From positions 1 to 56,145 of the forward strand of contig JAVHLG010000021.1 in the NCBI GenBank assembly GCA_031082225.1: DNA of 56,145 nt, given 5' to 3'. The position numbers and the translations under genes are program-made. Below, piece by piece: positions 42,342 to 56,050 of the stretch. This DNA is from Desulfovibrionaceae bacterium (GTDB lineage: Bacteria > Desulfobacterota > Desulfovibrionia > Desulfovibrionales > Desulfovibrionaceae). The notes beneath the pieces are model-generated. The model searched no databases and was not told where the DNA came from. It saw only the letters and a list, made by a program, of their open reading frames with translations. Each line of letters opens with the position of its first letter. Position 1 is the stretch's first letter.

Positions 42342-43664
42342 TCAGGACGCGCCTTTTTTTTCCATGCATTCGTAGATGATGTCGCCAAGGAACTTCAGTT
42401 CCATGCCGAGCCCGTATTTGTGGATGATGTCGTCCAGGCCGCCGTGGCAGTTGTGGCAGGGGGCGATGCAGGTCTTGACCCCGGTGGCCTTGAGCTGCTC
42501 GGCCTTGATGGAGTTGCCCACGATGCGCACGTTCTTGAAGGGAGGCCCGCAGTTGATGACCCCGCCGCCTGCGCAGCAGCAGTAGTTGTGCTCCCGGTTG
42601 GGGGTCATCTCCACCACGCCGTCGCAGATGGCGTGCACCACCTCGCGCAGCTTGTCCATGAGCCCCCGGCCGCGAATGACGTTGCAGGGGTCGTGGATGG
42701 TCACCGGTCCGGGGTACTTTTTGGCCATCTGGATTTTTCCGGAATTTAAGAGCTCCCAGAAAAATTCGATGGAGTGGACCACGGGCACCGGGTGCATGCC
42801 CCAGCCCAGCCAGCGGTTGGCGACATCATAGATGGCCCTGAAGGCGTGGCCGCACTCGCCCATGACGATGCGCTTGACGCGCAGGCGCTGTGCGGTCGCG
42901 AAGTGGGCCATCTCGATGCGGCCCATGATCTCCATGTCGCCGGTGAACATGGCCATGTTGCTGTTGTCCCAGCCCGGGGTGGCGGGCATGGTCCAATTGA
43001 CCCCGGCCTGGTTGAAGATGAACGCAGCCTGATAGATGAGCTGGGTGCGGAACTTGGGCTCCGGGGCGATGACCGAATACATGAAGTCCGCGCCTTCCAC
43101 CTCAAGCGGGATGCGCAAGGAGGGCATCTCGTCCCGGGCCTCGTCTTCCTGCCATTTGAGGGTGTCGATCCACTCGTCGTCCTTGACCCACATCTGGTTC
43201 ATGGTGGCCGAGTGGCTGTGAGCCGTGTCCTGGATGTACTGCGGGGTGACCCCGAGCTTGTGGCAGATGCGGCGAACAAACGACATGATGTAGGCCGTAT
43301 CGATGCCAAGCGGGCAGTAGTGCATGCAGCGCCGACACAGGTTGCACTCGGTGTAGGCGATCTGGGCGCACTGGTGGATGAATTCCGGGCTCACCAGTCC
43401 CTTGTGCTTGAGGATCTCCCACATGGTCTGGCGGACCTTGGCCACCGGGGCGTAGGAGGGATCCTTGTGGGACATGTAGTAGTGGCAGGCCTGGGCGCAC
43501 ATGCCGCAACGCACGCAGGTCTCCACATAGGTTTTGAGTCTGGCCCCGCCTTCTCCGGCCAGGACCGCCTGAATGGTTTTCTGAATCTTTTCCGGGGTCA
43601 GCCGGGCGATCCCGGCCTCGAGCCCCGCATCTTCTATGCGCCTGTCGGCAATGGTGGTCGTCAT
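42342..43664 (-). CDS. tmcB: TmcB, HdrD-like iron-sulfur/CCG subunit
   Basis: A 440-residue cytosolic redox subunit. Two [4Fe-4S] motifs near the N-terminus, CVRCGMCAQAC and CNLCRRCMHYC, are followed by CCG-type domains: ECGH with Cys271, DPCN, YCCCAGGG and CIAPCHNC, the ligands of the non-cubane cluster in HdrB/HdrD. In Desulfovibrio the Tmc complex passes periplasmic electrons through cytochrome b to this subunit. The ATG at 43664 has GGAGG upstream. It provides the intact-Cys reference for the selenoprotein at 54749..56050. Confidence 0.94.
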   Translation of the reverse strand: MTTTIADRRIEDAGLEAGIARLTPEKIQKTIQAVLAGEGGARLKTYVETCVRCGMCAQACHYYMSHKDPSYAPVAKVRQTMWEILKHKGLVSPEFIHQCAQIAYTECNLCRRCMHYCPLGIDTAYIMSFVRRICHKLGVTPQYIQDTAHSHSATMNQMWVKDDEWIDTLKWQEDEARDEMPSLRIPLEVEGADFMYSVIAPEPKFRTQLIYQAAFIFNQAGVNWTMPATPGWDNSNMAMFTGDMEIMGRIEMAHFATAQRLRVKRIVMGECGHAFRAIYDVANRWLGWGMHPVPVVHSIEFFWELLNSGKIQMAKKYPGPVTIHDPCNVIRGRGLMDKLREVVHAICDGVVEMTPNREHNYCCCAGGGVINCGPPFKNVRIVGNSIKAEQLKATGVKTCIAPCHNCHGGLDDIIHKYGLGMELKFLGDIIYECMEKKGAS

Positions 43665-46994: not shown

Positions 46995-48257
46995 CTAATG
47001 GTCGCAGGTGTTTTCGCCGGTGACCAGGCAGCCGCGCAGATAGTCGGCCACGATGGCTTCGGGCGAGTCGGCCTTGGCCCCCACCACCACCTTGACGCCC
47101 TTTTCCGTAAAAAGATCCCGGGCCTTCTGGCCCATGCCCCCGGCGATGACCAGATCCACCCCAAGGGTGGCGATCCAGGCCGGGATGACCCCGGGCTCAT
47201 GGGGCGGCGGAACCTCGTGGCGGGTTTCCATGATCCTGCCCGTGGCCGTGTCCACGTCCATGACCGCGAAGGTCTCGCAGTGGCCGAAGTGGGCGCACAG
47301 CGTGCCGCCCGCCGTGGGCACGGCCACGGTGAGCTTGGACCCGGCCGGGCCGTCGGCCACGGCATGGCCCGAGGCCGGGGCGGCGGCCGGGGCCTCCGGG
47401 CTCATGCGCGGCATGTCCACGGCCGGGGCCCTTTTCAAGGTCTCGGCCACGATGTCCTTGAAGGCCAGGGCCGAGGGGCTTTGGCCCTTGATGGCCAAAA
47501 AGGCCTCGCCCGCGTCGCCGGAACTGGCCACGGCAGGGTCGATGGGGATACGGCCCAGAAAGGCCACGCCCATGTCCCTGGCCAGGGCCTCGCCGCCGCC
47601 GGTGGAGAAGATGTTGTGCACGCTGCCGCAGTCCGGGCAGACAAATCCGCTCAAATTCTCCACGACGCCCAGGATGGGATTGCCCAGACGATGGCAGAAG
47701 GTCACCGAGCGGCGCACGTCGTCCACGGCCACGGCCTGGGGCGAGGTGACGATGAGGGCCTGGGCCTTTTCCCCCAGAAGCTGCATGACCGAAAGCGGCT
47801 CGTCGCCGGTCCCCGGAGGGCAGTCCACCACCAGATAGTCCAGATCCCCCCAGGCCACGTTCTCCAGAAACTGCTTGATGACCCCGCCCTTGACCGGGCC
47901 GCGCCAGATGACCGCCTCGTCCGAGTCGGGCAAAAGGAATCCCAGGGACATGACCTTGAGATTCCAGTTCCACTCCACGGGAATCATCATGTCGCCCTCA
48001 AGCCCGGGCTGGATGCCCGTGAGCTTGAGCAGGCGGGGGATGCTCGGGCCGTGCACGTCCACGTCCAAAAGCCCCACTTTTTTGCCCTCAAGGGCCAGTC
48101 CGGCGGCCAGATTGGCGGCCACGGTGCTCTTGCCCACCCCGCCCTTGCCGGAGAGGACCACGATTTTCTGCTTGATGCGGCACAAGGCCTGGTTCAGGCG
48201 CTTGTCATCCTCGCATTTGTCCTTGTCGGCACAACCCGAACACGCGCTCTCGCTCAT
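46995..48257 (-). CDS. Mrp/NBP35 ATPase fused to NifX-like domain (ORP cluster)
   Basis: A 420-residue fusion. N-terminal CSGCADKDKC is a small Cys motif; the Mrp/NBP35 P-loop domain follows (GKGGVGKS near residue 39, DVDVHGPS, CPPGTGDEP, CPDC). After a Pro/Ala linker at about residue 285-300, a MTH1175/NifX-like domain runs to the end (AVPTAGGTLCAHFGHCETF, GGMGQKARDLF). This architecture is that of DVU2109 in the Desulfovibrio orange-protein complex. Mrp ATPases carry iron-sulfur clusters; the NifX part would bind a molybdenum-type cluster. Co-directional with the two genes upstream. Confidence 0.92.
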   Translation of the reverse strand: MSESACSGCADKDKCEDDKRLNQALCRIKQKIVVLSGKGGVGKSTVAANLAAGLALEGKKVGLLDVDVHGPSIPRLLKLTGIQPGLEGDMMIPVEWNWNLKVMSLGFLLPDSDEAVIWRGPVKGGVIKQFLENVAWGDLDYLVVDCPPGTGDEPLSVMQLLGEKAQALIVTSPQAVAVDDVRRSVTFCHRLGNPILGVVENLSGFVCPDCGSVHNIFSTGGGEALARDMGVAFLGRIPIDPAVASSGDAGEAFLAIKGQSPSALAFKDIVAETLKRAPAVDMPRMSPEAPAAAPASGHAVADGPAGSKLTVAVPTAGGTLCAHFGHCETFAVMDVDTATGRIMETRHEVPPPHEPGVIPAWIATLGVDLVIAGGMGQKARDLFTEKGVKVVVGAKADSPEAIVADYLRGCLVTGENTCDH

Positions 48258-48291
48258 ATGCCCTTCCTTTTTCGCCCGTTGGCGTCAAATG

Positions 48292-48651
48292 TTACCAGTG
48301 TCCGTCCTTGTCCGCGGCCCCGGCCGGGGTCAGCGTCCCGGCCCGGAAGGCCTCGATGGCCTGGCCCACGGTGACTCCCTGGGCCAGATATATGGCGATG
48401 CCGCCCCGTTGCAAGGCGGAAAAGGCCTTGGGACCCACATGTCCGGTGATGACCGCGCCCACCCCCAGCCCGGCCACGGTCTGGGCCGACTGGATGCCCG
48501 CGCCCTGGGGCAGGGACAGGTTCTGGGTGTTTGCGGCAAAGGAACTCTCTCCGGACTCCAGGTCGTGGACGAAAAAACCGGCCGCCCGTCCGAAACGGGG
48601 GTCCAGGGGGCTTTCCAGAGAAGCCTTTTCGGTGGTGATGGCGATTTTCAT
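48292..48651 (-). CDS. Orange protein (ORP), NifX/MTH1175-like
   Basis: A 119-residue single-domain protein. The start MKIAITTEKASLESPLDPRFGRAAGF and core VGAVITGHVGPKAFSALQRGGI match the family of the D. gigas orange protein, which binds a S2MoS2CuS2MoS2 cluster, and DVU2108. The ATG at 48651 has AAGGAG eight bases upstream. It sits between the NifX-like gene and the Mrp fusion, as in the D. vulgaris orp cluster. The role in cell division reported for that complex is taken from literature, not seen here. Confidence 0.87.
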   Translation of the reverse strand: MKIAITTEKASLESPLDPRFGRAAGFFVHDLESGESSFAANTQNLSLPQGAGIQSAQTVAGLGVGAVITGHVGPKAFSALQRGGIAIYLAQGVTVGQAIEAFRAGTLTPAGAADKDGHW

Positions 48652-48700
48652 ATGCGTCTCCTTGCGTGAAAAATGGAATGCCGTGACGGCGTACACGGCG

Positions 48701-49105
48701 CTATTGGCGGCCTCTGCCCCCGCGTCCGCCTGCCGCCCGGCGCGGACAGATGCCCGGGGCGCGCAGGGCGGACACCCGGTCGTGGACCACGGCGGAAAGA
48801 ACCTCGTCCACCTGGCCGGCGATCCAGGGGTCCATGCGGATTCCGGCGGCCAGAAACATCTCCACGCACCGGCAGGTGGCCCCGCCGCAGACCAGCCGGT
48901 TCACCCCGGCCCGGCGAAGCGCCCCGGGCAGTCCGGGCAGGCCTTCCCCGGGCATGAGGCATTCCCCGGTAAAAACCGCCCTGCCGTCCGCCACCCGGTA
49001 CAGGCGCAGGCTGGCGGCGGTCTCCAGGAGCGAGGCCAGACGGTCCTCGTAGCAGGCCAGGCAGATCAGGCTGGGGCGGGAAGCGGCTGGCGTTTTTTCA
49101 TTCAT
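48701..49105 (-). CDS. ORP-cluster protein, DVU2107-like
   Basis: A 134-residue soluble protein. It has CLACYEDR, then GALRRAGVNRLVCGGATCRCVEMF, a Cys-rich metal-site-like segment with weak similarity to NifX-type domains, and a Gly/Arg-rich tail. It is the first gene after the -24/-12 promoter on the minus strand, corresponding in position to DVU2107 of the orp cluster. The ATG at 49105 has no strong ribosome site. Function unknown. Confidence 0.7.
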   Translation of the reverse strand: MNEKTPAASRPSLICLACYEDRLASLLETAASLRLYRVADGRAVFTGECLMPGEGLPGLPGALRRAGVNRLVCGGATCRCVEMFLAAGIRMDPWIAGQVDEVLSAVVHDRVSALRAPGICPRRAAGGRGGRGRQ

Positions 49106-49145
49106 AGTGGGTACATGGCATCGCACGTGTTTCACGACACCCACT

Positions 49146-49161
49146 AGCATTTGCCGTGCCG
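49146..49161 (-). promoter_or_regulatory. Sigma-54 promoter of the minus-strand ORP operon
   Basis: Minus strand: CGGCACG-GCAA-ATGCT, invariant GG and GC ten bases apart, five of seven -24 bases beyond GG exact. It lies 40 bases before the DVU2107-like gene. Transcription should begin near 49135. Confidence 0.72.
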
Positions 49162-49218
49162 TTAAAAAATAGTGTGCTATATTGAAGTGATAATGAAATG
49201 TTGCGGGTGGCGTGGGAG

Positions 49219-49243
49219 ATGGCGTGGGCAAAAAATACGCCAT
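49219..49243. promoter_or_regulatory. Candidate activator-binding site
   Basis: ATGGCGT (49219-49225) and its complement ACGCCAT (49237-49243), separated by 11 bases, 60-75 bases upstream of the -24 element. A related GGGC-A-rich-CC string lies near 50655 before the other promoter. Binding is inferred. Confidence 0.4.
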
Positions 49244-49265
49244 GCCTGGGTGTTGTGGGCGAGTT

Positions 49266-50597
49266 TTACTCCCCCGGTCCTGTTTCCAGGATGCGGCGCA
49301 GGGTGTCCTTGGTGATGCCGAGCTCCCGGCAGGCGGCCATGCGGCGGCCCTGATGCCGGGCCAGGGCGGCCATGACCGCGGCATGCTTGGCGGCACGCAT
49401 GGTCGGGGCGGCAGGGGGCTGGTCGTCGGCAGGCGACGGGACGGCGGGCCGCAGGTAGTCCGGCAGGTGCTCCAGGTCGATCTGGCCGCCCGAACACAGG
49501 ATGAAGGCGTATTCCAGGATGTTTTGCAACTCGCGCACGTTGCCGGGGAAGTCGTGATGCAAAAGCAGGCGCATGACCTCCGGGCTGGCCCCGGACACGT
49601 TTTTGCCCTGCACGGCGTTTTGGCCTGCGATGAAATGGGCGGTCAAAAGGGCCACGTCCTCGGGGCGTTCGCGCAAGGGGGGCAGGACCAGGCGCACCAC
49701 CCCCAGCCGGTAGAAGAGGTCGCGCCGGAAGGTTCCCTCGGCCACCATGGCCTCAAGATCCCGGTTGGTGGCCGCCACCACCCGGGCGTCGGCGGTCTGG
49801 GGCGTGTCCGACCCCAGGGGCTCGAAGACCTTCTCCTGGAGCACGCGCAGAAGTTTGACCTGAAGCGCCAGGGGCATGTCCCCGATCTCGTCCAGAAAAA
49901 TGGTGCCGCCCTTGGCCGAGGCGAAGCGGCCCTTGCGCGCGGTCCTGGCGTCGGTGAAGGCCCCCTTGGCGTGGCCGAAGAGCTCGGATTCCAAAAGCTC
50001 GCCCGGAATGGCCCCGCAGTTGACGGCCACGAAGGGGCCTCCCTTGCGCGGGCTCTGGGTGTGGATGGCCCGGGCGAAAAGCTCCTTGCCCGTGCCGGAT
50101 TCGCCAAGGAGCAGCACGGTTGAGCCGCTGGCCGCGATCTTGGGCAGCATCTCCAGCATCCGGGCCATGCGGCGGCTTTTGGTCACGATGTCGTCCAGGG
50201 TGGCGATGCCCTGGAGCTCCTTGCGCATGCGCTGCAGCTCGGAGATGTCCCGAAAGGTCTCCACCCCGCCCACGATCTGGCCCGAGGCGTCGCGCAGGGG
50301 CGAGGCGCTGATGCTGATGGGGATTTTCTCCCCGTCGGGGCGCACGATGAAGATGGAGGTGTTGGACAGGGAGTCGCCCGTGGCGATGCACTGTTTCAGG
50401 GCGCAGGCCCCGTCGCAGATGCTGGAGTGGAACACGTCCCAGCATTTGCGGCCCACGGCGGCCTCGGGGGCGATGCCGATGATCTCTCCGGCGGCCCGGT
50501 TGAACGAGGTCACGGTCCAGTCCCGGTCCACGGTGAACACGCCGTCGGCCAGGGACTCCATGATGGCCTGGCAGGGGATGTTTTTGGGAAAGTGCAT
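49266..50597 (-). CDS. PAS sigma-54 activator of the ORP operons
   Basis: A 443-residue activator. The N-terminal PAS domain (residues about 12-125) contains an unusual Cys motif, [19 protein letters not shown]. The AAA+ domain has Walker A GESGTGKE, the loop GAFTDA in place of GAFTGA, and Walker [12 protein letters not shown]. The C-terminal helix-turn-helix is [23 protein letters not shown]. Its position between two divergent operons that both carry -24/-12 promoters is that of DVU2106, which activates both orp operons. The PAS cysteines may sense redox or a metal cluster. Confidence 0.92.
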
Positions 50598-50727
50598 GGC
50601 GGTCTCGCAGGGTGCGGGCTGAAAATGCGCCGGTTTTGGCGAAACATGCGGGCGAAAAAATCGTCCGATTCGGTTTCGATCCTACACCGCTTTTTTCAAC
50701 TTGTCCAAATTCCGGGCCATTTTTTCT

Positions 50728-50743
50728 TGGCATGCGAAATGCT
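50728..50743 (+). promoter_or_regulatory. Sigma-54 promoter of the plus-strand ORP operon
   Basis: TGGCATG-CGAA-ATGCT: GG and GC ten bases apart, 47 bases before the start at 50790. It resembles the promoter at 38269. Confidence 0.72.
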
Positions 50744-50789
50744 TTTTAAGAGGCGACACGACAACACACAACACCAAGGAGGCATCATC

Positions 50790-51173
50790 ATGCCAGGATT
50801 CAATGGAACCGGGCCCCAGGGCAATGGGCCGCTTCCCGGCGGGGGGCGCGGCATGTGCGCCCAGACCGGCACGGGGATGGCGGGAGGACGCGGCATGGGC
50901 CGTCGCGGTGCAGGGGGCCAAGGCCAGGGTCAGGGTCAAGGTCAGGGCCAGGGGCAAGGCCGGGGTCAGGGTCAGGGCCGGGGTCAGGGTCAGGGCCGGG
51001 GCCAGGGTCAGGGCCAGGGCCAGGGTCAGGGCCAGGGCATATCCCAGGGAGCGGCTCAGGACGCAGGCCAGAGCCCGGCCGAGCCCGGGGCCGCCATGTC
51101 CCCCGAGGAATATGTGGCCTGGCTTGAGGCCGAGCTGGCCAAAACCCGCGCCAAGATGGGGCAGGGGAGTTAA
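50790..51173 (+). CDS. DUF5320-like Gly/Gln-rich protein
   Basis: A 127-residue protein. The N-terminal MPGFNGTGPQGNGPLPGGGRGMC is the DUF5320 signature seen in many ORP-type clusters. Residues about 43-84 are almost pure Gly-Gln/Gly-Arg repeats; the end (MSPEEYVAWLEAELAKTRAKMG) is a short coiled coil. The ATG at 50790 has AAGGAGG upstream. It is first in the plus-strand ORP operon (DVU2105 position). The repeat is likely disordered. Confidence 0.85.
   Translation: MPGFNGTGPQGNGPLPGGGRGMCAQTGTGMAGGRGMGRRGAGGQGQGQGQGQGQGQGRGQGQGRGQGQGRGQGQGQGQGQGQGISQGAAQDAGQSPAEPGAAMSPEEYVAWLEAELAKTRAKMGQGS
50916..51038 (+). repeat. In-frame 6-bp tandem repeat (Gly-Gln)n
   Basis: About twenty hexamers of CAGGGN/CAAGGN with CGGGGN variants at regular 18-base intervals, coding GQ, GQ, GR. 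The register is kept, so length changes would not shift the frame. Prone to copy-number variation. Confidence 0.9.
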
Positions 51174-52135
51174 TGGGCGCCACAGTCGATGAAACCCCGG
51201 TTTCCGGGGGCGCGTCTCCCGGGAACCGGCAACAGGACCATCCGGTTATGAAAATCGCCATCGCCAGCGGCAAGGGCGGCACGGGAAAAACCATGGTGGC
51301 GGTCAATCTGGCTGTACTTGCGGCCGAGGCCGGGCAGCAGGTGGTCTTTGCCGACTGCGACGTGGAGGAACCCAACGCCCACGTCTTTCTGCCCACGGTC
51401 TGGGAGCGCGAGGATAAGGCCCTGCTGCCCATTCCCCGGTTTGACCAAAACCGGTGTCTGGGGGAATCCTGCCGGGCGTGCCTGGATCTGTGCCGGTTCA
51501 AGGCGCTTATCCGCATGGCCGGAGAGATCATGCTCTTCCCGGAGATGTGCCACGGCTGCGGCCTGTGCAAATTGGCCTGCCCGGCCGGGGCTGTGGCCGA
51601 CGACGTGCGCGAACTTGGCGTGGTGCGCCAGGGGGTATCCGGAGGCATCCGCATGGCCGGGGGGCTTTCCCGGGTGGGCGAGGCCATGTCCACGCCGCTG
51701 ATCAAGGCGGTCAAGCAGTCCGCGAACGACGCGCCGCTCCAGATCTGGGACTGTCCGCCGGGAACGGCCTGTCCGGTCATCGCGGCCGTGTCCGGGGCGG
51801 ATTACGTGATCCTGGTGGCCGAGCCCACGGCGTTCGGGCTGCACGACCTGAACCTGGCCGTGGAACTGGTGCGGGCCCTGGGACTGCCCCACGGGGTGGT
51901 CATCAACCGCGACGGCATGGGCGACGACCGGGTGCTGTCGTATCTTGAGCGGGAAGGCATCGCGCTTTTGGGGCGCATCCCCGGCAGCCTGGAGGCCGCC
52001 CGGGCCTCGGCCCGGGGCGGGCTCTTGGTCCGGACGTTCCCGGAGATACGGGCCGTATTGGAAACCGTCCTGGCCACGGTCCAGGAACGTATCCGGGCAA
52101 GCGCCGGACAAGGGGAGGCGGCATGCGCGAGATAG
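51173..52135 (+). CDS. MinD-type P-loop ATPase with ferredoxin domain (ORP cluster)
   Basis: A 320-residue protein of the MinD/ParA superfamily with an inserted ferredoxin. The deviant Walker A is KGGTGKT (near residue 34); DCDVEEPNAH follows. The insert has CLGESCRACLDLC and CHGCGLCKLAC for [4Fe-4S] clusters, then DCPPGTACPV and VAEPTAFG. It corresponds to DVU2104. The ATG at 51173 overlaps the preceding TAA; an ATG at 51248 (MKIAIASGKGG) would fit the family start better, but neither has an ideal ribosome site. Confidence 0.9.
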   Translation: MGATVDETPVSGGASPGNRQQDHPVMKIAIASGKGGTGKTMVAVNLAVLAAEAGQQVVFADCDVEEPNAHVFLPTVWEREDKALLPIPRFDQNRCLGESCRACLDLCRFKALIRMAGEIMLFPEMCHGCGLCKLACPAGAVADDVRELGVVRQGVSGGIRMAGGLSRVGEAMSTPLIKAVKQSANDAPLQIWDCPPGTACPVIAAVSGADYVILVAEPTAFGLHDLNLAVELVRALGLPHGVVINRDGMGDDRVLSYLEREGIALLGRIPGSLEAARASARGGLLVRTFPEIRAVLETVLATVQERIRASAGQGEAACAR

Positions 52136-52998
52136 TGGTGCTTTCCGGCAAGGGCGGCACTGGAAAGACCAGCGTCACGGCCGCCCTGGCCGTGTGCGCG
52201 GCGAAAAGCGAACTCCCGGGCGGGCCGCCGGTTCTGGCCGACTGCGACGTGGACGCCGCCGACCTGCATCTGGTCCTGGCACCCGCCGTTTTGGAGCGCC
52301 ATGAATTTATTGGCGGGGACAAGGCCGCCATCGACGCGGCAGTGTGCCAGTCCTGCGGCCTGTGTCGCGAGGCCTGCCGTTTCGGGGCCATCGACGAAGC
52401 GTTTCAGGTGGTCGAGGCCTCCTGCGAGGGCTGCGGGGTCTGCGCCTATGTCTGCCCTGCCGGGGCCGCGACCCTTGGCCCGCGCATGTCCGGGGACTGG
52501 TTTTTATCCGAGACCCGGGCAGGGATCATGGTCCATGCGGCGCTGCGCATGGGCGAGGAGAATTCCGGAAAGCTGGTGTCCACGGTGAAAAAGGCGGCCC
52601 GGGCCGAGGCGGAAAGGCTTGGCCGGGACATCCTGCTGGTGGACGGCTCCCCGGGCATCGGCTGTCCGGTCATCGCCTCCCTGGGCGGGGCCTCCACGGT
52701 GCTCATGGTGGCCGAGCCCACGCTCTCGGCGGTGCATGACCTCAAAAGGGTCCACGCCCTGGCCCGGCATTTCGGCATCCCCTGCGCCGCCATCCTCAAC
52801 AAGGCCGACCTCTGCCCGGAGCTGACCCGGGAGTTGGCGGCCTTTTGCGGGGAGTCGGGGATCGCCGTCCTGGGGGAGCTTCCCTATGACCCGGCCTTTG
52901 TCGCGGCCCAACTGGCCGGACAAAGCGTTGCGGAATACGCCCCGGAAAGGTACGAAGGGCTTTTTTCGGAGATCTGGCGACGGCTTGCGGCATCGTAG
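52123..52998 (+). CDS. Second MinD-type ATPase with ferredoxin domain (ORP cluster)
   Basis: A 291-residue paralogue of the preceding protein: KGGTGKTS, DCDVDAADLHLVLAP, then CQSCGLCREAC and CEGCGVCAYVC ferredoxin motifs, DGSPGIGCPV and VAEPTLSAVHDL. It corresponds to DVU2103. It overlaps the upstream gene by 13 bases, so the two are coupled and probably form a heterodimer that couples ATP use to an iron-sulfur redox step. Confidence 0.93.
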   Translation: MREIVVLSGKGGTGKTSVTAALAVCAAKSELPGGPPVLADCDVDAADLHLVLAPAVLERHEFIGGDKAAIDAAVCQSCGLCREACRFGAIDEAFQVVEASCEGCGVCAYVCPAGAATLGPRMSGDWFLSETRAGIMVHAALRMGEENSGKLVSTVKKAARAEAERLGRDILLVDGSPGIGCPVIASLGGASTVLMVAEPTLSAVHDLKRVHALARHFGIPCAAILNKADLCPELTRELAAFCGESGIAVLGELPYDPAFVAAQLAGQSVAEYAPERYEGLFSEIWRRLAAS

Positions 52999-53108: not shown

Positions 53109-54446
53109 ATGCCTCAGGACGGCAACGACATGACGTCGCGGGACGATCTTGACCGGGTGCTCGACGACCTGGGCCTGGGCGTTTTCACCGTGGACGAGGA
53201 CTTCACCCTGCGCTTTTTCAACCGGGAGGCGGAGCGCATCACCGGCTATTCCCGGGCCGAGGTCGTGGGGAAGAAGTGCCACGAGGTCTTTTATACCCCC
53301 AACTGCAACGAGCGCTGCCAACTGCGGCAGGCCATCCGCACCGGCCGCAAGATCGGCAGGACCAGGCTGGACATCCTGGACAAGTCCGGCCGCCGTCTGG
53401 CCGTGGAGGTCTCGGCCGCGCCCCTGACCGACGCCTCGGGACGGATCGTGGGCGGGGTGGAGACGTTTCTGGATGTGTCCGGGGCGGACATCCCGCTCCC
53501 GGAGGGCGTCCGGTCTCCGGGGCTGGACGAGTTCGTGGGCGCAGACGACGCCGTCTTGCGCCTGTTCGAGACCCTGACCCTGGCCGCCGGAACCACCGCC
53601 CCCATCCTGCTTTTGGGCGAGACGGGCACGGGCAAGGATCTGCTGGCCCGGGCCGCCCACCGCCTGAGCCATCGCCGGGACGGCCCCTTCGTCAAGATCA
53701 ACTGCGCCGCGCTGCCCGAAAATCTGCTGGAATCCGAACTCTTCGGCTATAAAAAGGGGGCCTTCACCGACGCCCGGGCCGACAAGCCGGGCATTTTGCA
53801 GACCGCCGAGGGCGGCACGGTCTTTTTCGACGAGATCGGCGAACTGCCCCTGGCGCTCCAGGCCAAGCTGCTCCAGGTCATGGAGGAAAAACGCTTTCAC
53901 CCGCTTGGGGCCACCGCGCCCCGGACCGTGGACGTGCGCCTGGTGGCGGCCACCAACCGCAGCCTCAAGGCCCTGGCGGCGGAGGGCAGATTCCGCGAGG
54001 ATTTGTACTTCCGCCTGCGGGTGCTGGAGCTTGAGATCCCCCCCCTGCGTCGGCGGCGCGGCGACATTCCCCTTTTGGTTGAGCATTTCATCAAACATAT
54101 CGGCGAGATGTATCACAAACGGATCGCCGGGGCGGACCCTTCGGTCATGAAGCTCTTATTCCGCCACGATTTTCCCGGCAACGTGCGGGAACTTCTGCAT
54201 GTGGTGGAGCACGCGGTCATCCTGGCCAGGGACGAGGTGCTGCATGTCGGCGACCTGCCGCCCTCCCTGGCCCAGGCCGCCCCCCGCAAGGCCGTCACGG
54301 ACGATCCCAGCCCCCTGGCCCGCAGCGAGCGGGACTGCCTCGTGGAAGAACTGGCGGCGCATGGCTGGAACATGACCCGGACCGCCACAACCCTTGGCGT
54401 CAACCGTTCCACCCTGTGGCGCAAGATGAAAAAATACGGCCTGTAG
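53109..54446 (+). CDS. PAS sigma-54 activator upstream of the selenoprotein gene
   Basis: A 445-residue activator built like the ORP one. The PAS domain has a Cys motif CHEVFYTPNCNERC. The AAA+ domain has Walker A GETGTGKD, GAFTDA in the sigma-54 loop, and Walker B GGTVFFDEIGE. The Fis-type helix-turn-helix is WNMTRTATTLGVNRSTLWRKMKKYGL. The next gene downstream has a -24/-12 promoter and palindromic TGTTGC sites, so it is the likely target. Start at 53109; an ATG at 53130 is also in frame. Confidence 0.92.
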   Translation: MPQDGNDMTSRDDLDRVLDDLGLGVFTVDEDFTLRFFNREAERITGYSRAEVVGKKCHEVFYTPNCNERCQLRQAIRTGRKIGRTRLDILDKSGRRLAVEVSAAPLTDASGRIVGGVETFLDVSGADIPLPEGVRSPGLDEFVGADDAVLRLFETLTLAAGTTAPILLLGETGTGKDLLARAAHRLSHRRDGPFVKINCAALPENLLESELFGYKKGAFTDARADKPGILQTAEGGTVFFDEIGELPLALQAKLLQVMEEKRFHPLGATAPRTVDVRLVAATNRSLKALAAEGRFREDLYFRLRVLELEIPPLRRRRGDIPLLVEHFIKHIGEMYHKRIAGADPSVMKLLFRHDFPGNVRELLHVVEHAVILARDEVLHVGDLPPSLAQAAPRKAVTDDPSPLARSERDCLVEELAAHGWNMTRTATTLGVNRSTLWRKMKKYGL

Positions 54447-54535: not shown

Positions 54536-54573
54536 TGTTGCGAGGATGCAACATGTGTTGCGCCAGGTGTTGC
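54536..54573. promoter_or_regulatory. Palindromic activator sites (TGTTGC/GCAACA)
   Basis: TGTTGC-GAGGAT-GCAACA is a perfect dyad at 54536-54553, followed by further TGTTGC half sites at 54556-54561 and 54568-54573. It lies about 100 bases upstream of the -24 element, the usual distance for a sigma-54 activator. It fits the activator gene ending at 54446. Confidence 0.6.
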
Positions 54574-54658
54574 AAATGCGCGACATGGGTACCGCTCGGA
54601 TTGGGCATTCGCCTTTCAAAACAGCCTGAATACATCGAAATATCCGATCTGACGGCGG

Positions 54659-54674
54659 CGGCACGGCTTTTGCG
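54659..54674 (+). promoter_or_regulatory. Sigma-54 promoter of the selenoprotein gene
   Basis: CGGCACG-GCTT-TTGCG: only the first and last positions depart from TGGCACG-N4-TTGCW. GG and GC are ten bases apart. It lies 75 bases before the ATG at 54749. Confidence 0.75.
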
Positions 54675-54748: not shown

Positions 54749-56050
54749 ATGGGTGAGTCGGTGTATACCATTGAAGGAAAAAAACGGCCCTCGTTCATGG
54801 CCAAGGTCAAGGAGCTTCTGCCCGAGGGCGGAAACCTTGACATGTGCCTGACCTGCGGGCTGTGCGCCTCGGGGTGTCCGGCCTCGGGTCTGGCCGGGGG
54901 CATGGATCCCCGCAAGTTCTTGCGCATGGCCGCCCTGGGCATGGACGACGAGGTCACCTCCACGGAGTGGGTGTGGCACTGCACCATGTGTCAGCGCTGC
55001 ATCTACGCCTGCCCCATGAAGATCGACATCCCGCAACTGGTCTTCAACGCCCGGCAGTCCTGGCCGCGCGAGAAGCGGCCCAAGGGCATCGTGGGCTCCT
55101 GCGACCAGGCCCTTCGCACCAAGGGCAACAGCGCCATGGGCGCGTCCTCCGAGGACTTCGCCTTCGTGGTGGGCGACGTCTTGGAAGAGGTGCGCGAGAA
55201 CCAGCCGGGCCAGGAAGACCTGGTGGCTCCGGTGGACAAGATCGGCGCGGAATACTTCCTCAACCAGAACTCCCGCGAGCCCGTCACCGAGCCCGACGAG
55301 ATGGTCCCCCTGTGGAAGATACTTAAGACCGTGGGCGCGGACTGGACCTACGGCACCCGGGGCTGGGCGGCCGAAAACTACTGCATGTTCCTGGCCGACG
55401 ACGCGGCCTGGGAAAACGTGGTGCGCAACAAGGTCAAGGCTGTGGAGGAGCTGGGGTGTAAATACTGGCTCAACACGGAGTGAGGCCACGAACTCTTCGC
55501 AGTCCGGGCCGGACTGAAAAAGTTTGGGATCACGCCGAAGTTTGAGATCGAAAGCATCATCCGCCTCTATGCCCGCTGGATTCGGGAGGGCAAACTCAAC
55601 GTGTCCTCCGACTGGAACAAGGACCGCAAGGTGACCTTCACCGTGCAGGATCCCTGTCAGCTCGTGCGCAAGACCTACGGCGACCCCGTGGCCGACGATC
55701 TGCGCTTCGTGACCAAGGCCGTGGTCGGTGAGGAAAACTTCATCGACATGTGGCCCAGAAAGTCCAACAACTACTGCTGCGGCGGCGGCGGCGGTTTCCT
55801 GCAATCCGGCATGCCCGACGCCCGTCGGGCCTACGGCAAGCTCAAGCACGACCAGATCATGGAGACCAAGGCGCACTATTGCATCACCCCGTGCCACAAC
55901 TGCCATTCCCAGATCCACGACCTCTCGGAACACTTCGAGGGCGGCTACCACACCGTGCATCTGTGGACGCTGATCTGCCTGTCCATGGGCATGCTCGGAG
56001 AAAACGAGCGCGAATACCTGGGCGACGACCTGAAGGACGTCGGCCTGTAA
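54749..56050 (+). CDS. HdrD/TmcB-like iron-sulfur protein, predicted selenoprotein
   Basis: One 434-codon gene read through an in-frame TGA at 55481-55483 (residue 245, selenocysteine), giving 433 residues. Upstream part: [4Fe-4S] motifs CLTCGLCASGC (C33, C36, C39, C43) and CTMCQRCIYAC. At the TGA the context is NTE-U-GHELFAVRAGL, where TmcB (42342..43664) has GECGHAFRA. Downstream, in the same frame and uninterrupted: DPCQ (C303), NYCCGGGGG (C343, C344) and CITPCHNC, a complete CCG cluster set. A hairpin starts 16 bases after the TGA. The ATG has AAAAGGAG upstream. A plain nonsense mutation or sequencing error is less likely because the flanking code and motif are intact. Confidence 0.88.
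55484..55516 (+). promoter_or_regulatory. Bacterial SECIS-like hairpin
   Basis: CAGTCCG (55500-55506), loop GGC, CGGACTG (55510-55516), beginning 16 bases after the TGA, the expected distance for SelB-dependent selenocysteine insertion. Read with a six-pair stem the apical loop is GGGCC. Confidence 0.65.

Follow-up and report, generated by a model that had tools for sequence, protein, structure and literature searches.

Near the end of the 56,145-nucleotide stretch of DNA analyzed here (the window; contig JAVHLG010000021.1 of a Desulfovibrionaceae bacterium), a gene split into two fragments by plain ORF calling very probably encodes a single iron-sulfur protein with a selenocysteine (Sec) beside a reactive cluster. 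The reading of UGA 245 as Sec, and of the two pieces as one selenoprotein gene, is well supported by the sequence comparisons described below, the chemistry of the protein aside. The gene is a member of an already known selenoprotein family (PMC1794560, PMC2702500, and PMC13188914), whose members have so far been recognized as selenoproteins by computation. To this we add two predictions, namely (i) the mapping of Sec to a noncubane-cluster loop by way of the solved relative EtfD and (ii) a sigma-54 element accompanied by TGTTGC half sites, and it is the Sec placement and the sigma-54 control that we consider worth following.

The frame of the Sec gene comprises 434 codons including the stop; its one internal TGA is codon 245, and the residues around it read N-T-E-U-G-H. 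The contig ends 95 bases 3' of the gene. The original prediction had described a TGA that interrupts an otherwise continuous frame, with coding sequence on both sides, and each of its elements was recovered on reading the sequence: a Fer4_8 domain precedes the TGA and a CCG domain follows it, the E-U-G-H at the TGA corresponds to E-C-G-H (Cys271) in the TmcB paralogue of the window, and the gene is indeed split by a Table-11 ORF listing, into fragments of 244 aa and 149 aa. A sister gene of 95% identity differs from the Sec gene at 12 first, 2 second, and 37 third codon positions before the TGA and at 5, 4, and 22 after it, a third-position-rich pattern that indicates coding sequence on either side. 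We therefore rejected a pseudogene, and we likewise rejected a sequencing error, the doubt for which resequencing had been proposed, because the TGA recurs in this sister gene and in 49 further genes. Pyrrolysine or damage was also rejected for two homologues with other stop codons: the TAG in genome G008 (L094) falls at codon 410 in a reading of 412 and marks a natural end, and the TAA in genome G011 (L092) is likewise the end, with none inside the stretch of L092 that was read.

Table 1. Positions in the window of the Sec gene, its parts, and the predicted regulatory features upstream.
Feature	Position	Strand	Basis or comment
Predicted sigma-54 promoter GGCACGGCTTTTGC	54660..54673	+	89 bases before start codon; conserved element
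Predicted activator site 1, TGTTGC-N6-GCAACA	54536..54553	.	Pattern search
Predicted activator site 2, TGTTGC-N6-GCGACA	54568..54585	.	Pattern search
PAS / sigma-54 interaction / HTH_8 activator gene	53109..54446	+	Domains; upstream homologues in 9 further loci
HdrD-like (HdrC-HdrB fusion) Fe-S selenoprotein gene	54749..56050	+	433 residues, Sec245
HdrC-like 4Fe-4S dicluster domain, residues 30-92	54836..55024	+	Pfam Fer4_8 and HdrC sequence match
HdrB-like part, residues 166-430	55244..56038	+	Domain search, alignment, fold match
UGA codon for Sec245	55481..55483	+	TGA 51 / Cys 13 among 64 homologues
His247 codon, aligned with EtfD ligand His583	55487..55489	+	Profile alignment; His in 51/51 TGA rows
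SECIS-type hairpin	55500..55516 (55500-55506 / 55510-55516, loop 55507-55509)	+	7 pairs; pairing and codon constraint

In 199 genomes from the window's family, a protein search gave matches at E <= 1e-20 in 167 and, among the matches listed, 64 above 600 bits, window included; the codon at residue 245 was read in each of the 64. It is TGA in 51, the window among them, and TGC or TGT in 13, so that the predicted alternation of Cys and TGA holds in 64 of 64 homologues with no third state. With TGA read as Cys, residue 245 is invariant in all 47 aligned sequences, TmcB included. Beyond the family, named genome records carry TGA at this residue in 80 of 80 loci; these are the best-scoring 80 of 577 matches to a Sec-form query, a choice in which Cys forms are under-represented. 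Records of Desulfopila aestuarii, Desulfonema magnum, and Salidesulfovibrio brasiliensis are among those with the TGA copy. In a sample of the phylum, 49 of 395 genomes match at E <= 1e-100, and among the 69 matches listed 52 contain one TGA and 17 contain none, as a count of TGA codons irrespective of position. Two distant HdrD-like relatives (L105:3001-4161 and L106:3001-4092; ∼30% identity), picked since the family search already showed a TGA in them, have it at the equivalent of residue 245.

On a quick, unrooted tree of the 64 homologues, the Sec and Cys states need five changes, and the starred branches force five; shuffled labels needed 12.0 on average, and 0 of 500 shuffles needed as few as five. 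One group on this tree consists of nine Cys copies, and the single Cys rows within Sec groups (L078, L080, L087, and L094) look like Sec-to-Cys changes. Five loci (L051, L056, L066, L071, and L090) carry both a Sec and a Cys copy of the gene, arranged in tandem in the same orientation, which provides a natural control.

Just after the UGA, the perfect seven-pair hairpin of the original prediction was found, 16 bases 3' of the TGA and with a 3-base loop, and it is present in the minimum-energy fold. Folding energy alone is weak evidence, as 17 of 200 shuffles fold as well (z −1.74). The pairing is kept in 98.5% of cells across 48 distinct TGA rows, and in 67.0% of cells in the 13 Cys rows, where changes on both sides of a pair are absent; in the best 80 of 577 named-record loci, all seven pairs form in 75 and six pairs in 5. 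Compensatory change is confined to one pair, which goes from GC to AU in 5 TGA rows and in 5 further rows does not form; three of the other pairs vary on one side only, and three never vary in the 48 TGA rows. Since one such two-sided pair was reached by 292 of 500 shuffles, though 5 such cells by none, we regard the covariation as modest and consider that codon choice weighs more. Among 281 codon columns with a conserved residue, scored for synonymous constraint against each gene's own codon use, the two most constrained are hairpin codons, namely Arg253 (CGG in 51 of 51 rows) and Val252 (GTC in 41 of 41 rows having Val); His247 ranks third, and Gly255, Leu256, and Ala251 rank 7, 12, and 14. 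An Rfam scan gave matches at chance level only. L105 has an eight-pair hairpin of different sequence at the equivalent place; L106 has the TGA, yet its minimum-energy fold differs.

The genome check suggested earlier for selA, selB, selC, and selD located all four above their cut-offs in the window's genome (tRNA-Sec 84.2, selB 380, selA 609.4, and selD 330.8 bits), which, together with the alternation of Cys and TGA, bears out the Sec reading. Its selD (L108) has an in-frame TGA of its own. The tRNA-Sec model also matches 14 of 14 control genomes, exceeding its cut-off in 5, and a second match in the window's genome scores 47.9 bits against a cut-off of 47, so we rely on the 84.2-bit match. 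As selB exceeds its cut-off in 167 of the 199 family genomes, it does not discriminate. A TGA copy occurs in 45 genomes, and in 42 of these selB is matched at E 1e-88 or better; the match is 8.9e-43 in G022 and none was found in G014 and G188, assemblies of 520, 430, and 180 contigs, respectively. Three genomes with Cys copies only were compared: the selB match of G008 is weak (1.6e-56), but G119 and G044 have selB, which indicates that loss of the machinery is not a general explanation of the Cys forms. Could the TGA nevertheless be a real stop, in a pseudogene, through a sequencing error, or between two separate genes? The two fragments in a plain ORF listing would suggest so, but TGA and Cys account for all 64 homologues, the named-record loci have TGA without exception, substitutions 3' of the TGA are of coding type, the hairpin codons are constrained, and the genome possesses the Sec machinery, which together make a real stop extremely improbable.

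The N-terminal part of the product matches HdrC by sequence, and the Pfam CCG domain (residues 298-389) holds one complete CCG site, comprising Cys303, Cys343, Cys344, Cys382, and Cys385. An AlphaFold model, built with Cys at 245 from a 47-row alignment (mean pLDDT 89.8), is most similar to EtfD of Mycobacterium smegmatis (Z 26.6, rmsd 3.2, 373 residues), followed by HdrB chains (Z 21.1-22.2 over ∼250 residues from residue 166), LutA (Z 20.9), and the Helicobacter protein 3kwl (Z 20.6). The HdrC match and the HdrB fold from residue 166 thus identify the product as an HdrC-HdrB fusion of the HdrD-like kind. HdrB and HdrD are alike in fold and in the HdrC-like N-terminal part, but they differ in having two five-Cys CCG sites: here one site is complete, and the first half keeps only residue 245. 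TmcB, HmcF, and DsrK also have one ferredoxin domain and one complete CCG site, with Cys at the Sec position in TmcB; the Sec protein nonetheless scores far below their curated cut-offs (136.3 against 735, 150.5 against 750, and 103.6 against 400 bits, respectively) and has no membrane partner beside its gene. It also misses the GlpC cut-offs (NF008369, 44.1 against 278 bits; TIGR03379, 38.2 against 279.9 bits), and glp genes are absent among the ORFs listed upstream on this contig. A profile search of the window's genome returned only the Sec gene, one weaker relative, and the paralogue at 42342-43664, which is TmcB (855.6 bits; cut-off 735).

To place Sec relative to the clusters, we used the profile alignment to EtfD. 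In EtfD, the noncubane cluster D2 is bound by Cys637, Cys672, Cys673, Cys709, Cys712, and His583, and the linear [3Fe-4S] cluster D1 by Cys503, Cys538, Cys581, and Cys584 (PMC13083937). With EtfD residue numbers counted by hand along the alignment, the five cysteines of the CCG site correspond, in order, to the five D2 cysteines, residue 247 to His583, and residue 245 to Cys581. The register at residue 245 comes from one profile alignment, at 17% identity, and a profile comparison with the neighbouring HdrB left the half that contains it unaligned; all five D2 cysteines being in register supports the EtfD alignment despite the low identity. Only position 581 of the D1 ligands is kept in the Sec protein family, as Sec or Cys. 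With three of the four D1 cysteines missing, a D1 cluster should not form, yet residue 245 is invariant, from which we infer that it serves the remaining, noncubane cluster. The earlier proposal that Sec lies at or near an iron-sulfur site thus gains support from a relative of known structure, if through predicted register, and the alignment of Sec with a ligand-bearing loop turns the question of its role into a test on one residue.

Gene neighbours were compared by automatic ORF clustering at 58 loci, with 6 to 8 kb of flanking sequence, less where a contig ended sooner; clusters were named from one representative each, and the GlpB-like cluster from sequence only. The clusters found include HdrA (24 loci), universal stress protein (16), MvhD (13), HdrB (13), sigma-54 activators (11), HdrC (10), FrhB/FdhB-like (10), GlpA (10), and GlpB-like (7). 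HdrA or GlpA, flavoproteins by family, occurs at 34 of the 58 loci and neither at 24. A recurring order is mvhD, frhB/fdhB-like, hdrA, hdrC, hdrB, usp, and the Sec gene (L057 and L058), and at L061, L095, L097, and L098 a gene for a flavoprotein resembling the glutamate synthase small subunit precedes the Sec gene, with hdrA after it. Because separate hdrB and hdrC genes often accompany hdrA, the Sec protein is not simply the HdrBC of HdrA. In the window, where the contig ends so close to the Sec gene, no flavoprotein gene lies next to it. Another contig of the same genome (L120:3926-10508) carries hdrA, a vhuD-type gene, and a hydrogenase large-subunit gene, each with an in-frame TGA; no hdrB or hdrC match was found in the L120 stretch fetched. 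This cluster resembles the hdrA-frhD-frhG-frhA operon, which GlpC joins in some species (PMC1794560), and a partnership between the HdrA/VhuD/VhuA set and the window's Sec protein is our guess. The contig of this cluster also carries the 84.2-bit tRNA-Sec. Three minor observations concern the relatives: HdrA of the hdr operon at L057:1972-5427 has an internal receiver domain (PF00072, residues 191-297); a ∼150-residue protein (L055:9287-9745), unmatched in Pfam and NCBIfam at the cut-offs applied, is encoded after the Sec gene at L052, L055, L059, and L100; and the gene between the activator and the Sec gene at L083 resembles it by eye.

The reading that we favor, with somewhat guarded confidence, is that of a soluble HdrC-HdrB fusion that exchanges electrons with flavoproteins at a Sec-flanked noncubane cluster, with a sigma-54-driven copy in the window. 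The sequence evidence supports well the decoding of UGA 245 with the hairpin and the genome's own SelA, SelB, SelD, and tRNA-Sec, which gives a soluble product with two ferredoxin-type [4Fe-4S] sites in its N-terminal part and one complete five-Cys CCG site in its C-terminal part. The CCG site would hold a noncubane [4Fe-4S] cluster, which would be reached by the E-U-G-H loop in the first, degenerate CCG half, with His247 as a possible ligand and Sec245 adjoining, in place of the Cys that in EtfD holds the second cluster. The Sec/noncubane site would exchange electrons with a partner flavoprotein, for which HdrA/MvhD are candidates in certain relatives, GlpAB elsewhere, and the set on the other contig perhaps in the window's genome; the cubane clusters would pass electrons onward or bring them in, and Sec may tune or speed the exchange step, as a selenolate ligand or a redox-active residue. 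The copy of the window type would be transcribed from its sigma-54 promoter under its own activator. We advance more tentatively the specific proposal that Sec245 is a selenolate ligand or redox partner of the noncubane [4Fe-4S] cluster, exchanging electrons between two-electron flavins and one-electron Fe-S wires, used with several unlike donors and widespread in sulfate reducers; if true, this would be a natural selenium-tuned noncubane cluster.

Sec is a usual residue in thiol/disulfide chemistry. This property, the HdrB/HdrD-like fold, and the adjoining HdrA, HdrB, HdrC, and MvhD genes in some relatives would suit a true reductase of a disulfide, or of a DsrC-type trisulfide, in which the noncubane cluster and Sec245 cleave the S-S bond, Sec takes the role of HdrB's second noncubane cluster, and HdrA and GlpAB feed a common acceptor. 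The disulfide-reductase-like step of the original prediction belongs here, and it fares less well than the placement of Sec: the protein has a single complete five-Cys site out of the two in HdrB, its GlpAB-linked copies lack an evident disulfide substrate, and His247 is conserved at the position where, in EtfD, the His ligand makes D2 non-catalytic, unlike HdrB, in which a bridging Cys gives way to the disulfide (PMC13083937). We consider such a reductase possible but rather unlikely. Less probable still, in our view, is that Sec is kept for a reason other than electron transfer, such as resisting or repairing oxidation at the cluster, with catalysis being the same in the Cys form. The 13 Cys forms among the 64 homologues, some of them paired in tandem with a Sec form of the same genome, would agree with this, and such protection is discussed for [NiFeSe] hydrogenases (PMC13188914), but protection alone leaves unexplained the Cys/Sec invariance in the 47 aligned sequences.

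Several proteins on record invite comparison with the Sec protein. An 'Fe-S oxidoreductase (GlpC)' family of 5 selenoproteins, D. vulgaris included, was described in 2006 (PMC1794560); a 2026 review lists an 'Fe-S oxidoreductase-like protein' family as PTHR43551 with the motif UGH (PMC13188914), and the family is listed also in PMC9312934. The GlpC-type selenoproteins share the U-G-H motif, the Fe-S/CCG type, and sulfate-reducer hosts with our protein, which has E-U-G-H in a ferredoxin-CCG protein (Fer4 and CCG domains), and the available portions of these sources contain no feature that would set it apart; nor do those portions mention sigma-54 control or a mapping to EtfD. In Desulfobacterium autotrophicum, hdrD4 and hdrF2 encode selenoproteins, which by description are alike in joining HdrC and HdrB domains in a single selenoprotein; hdrF1 and hdrF2 adjoin glpAB, like the GlpA-linked relatives of the Sec gene, whereas HdrF differs in having transmembrane parts (PMC2702500). 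A Sec-containing BamE is reported in Desulfococcus multivorans (PMC5109826). EtfD (PDB 9ojn; PMC13083937) is the best structural match, with all D2 ligands including the His in register, but it differs in its membrane part and its linear [3Fe-4S] second cluster, for which the Sec protein lacks three of the four Cys ligands and has Sec as the fourth. We found no publication joining selenocysteine, heterodisulfide reductase, and sigma54 within a coverage that leaves most subscription journals outside.

Control by sigma-54, which may tell when cells want the Sec protein, is predicted for the window-type copy. A homologue of the activator (50-87% identity) lies upstream on the same strand in the window and at nine other loci; it adjoins the Sec gene at 9 of these 10 loci, all ten Sec genes are TGA forms, and the activator in the window is likely the regulator of its Sec gene. 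The Desulfovibrionales sigma-54 consensus is tGGcacg / tTGCt (PMC4641369), a paper whose main text has no words beginning with Hdr or GlpC. The pattern GG-N8-TTGC occurs once in the upstream stretch of each of the nine adjoining loci (9 in total; shuffle mean 1.31), always with one or more TGTTGC/GCAACA half sites (29 altogether; shuffle mean 3.04), and the strict palindrome occurs at five of the nine (7 in total; shuffle mean 0.02); 0 of 500 shuffles matched the totals for element, half sites, or palindromes. As the patterns were first noticed in the window, its two palindromes are not independent; the remaining five come from the other eight loci. For L048, whose activator homologue has 69% identity, a fixed 330-base upstream stretch was used. 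At L083, where a single gene separates the activator from the Sec gene, neither the strict promoter nor the strict palindrome pattern is matched, but two GTTGCA-N4-TGCAAC repeats and TGGCACGGCTTTTCC are present. Upstream of the distant relative L105, too, a homologue of the sigma-54 activator (48%) is encoded in the same direction.

A C-x8-C-x3-C motif in the PAS domain is common to all eight aligned activators, and redox sensing by this domain is a guess; the motif is present in the window's other activator as well, which suggests that it marks the PAS type. This second PAS/sigma-54 activator (49266-50597) lies within a region of the window (46995-52998) that also encodes a fusion of an Mrp-type ATPase with a Nitro_FeMo-Co domain (46995-48257) and a pair of P-loop ATPases bearing ferredoxin motifs (51173-52135 and 52123-52998), and that resembles the orange-protein (ORP) region of Desulfovibrio.
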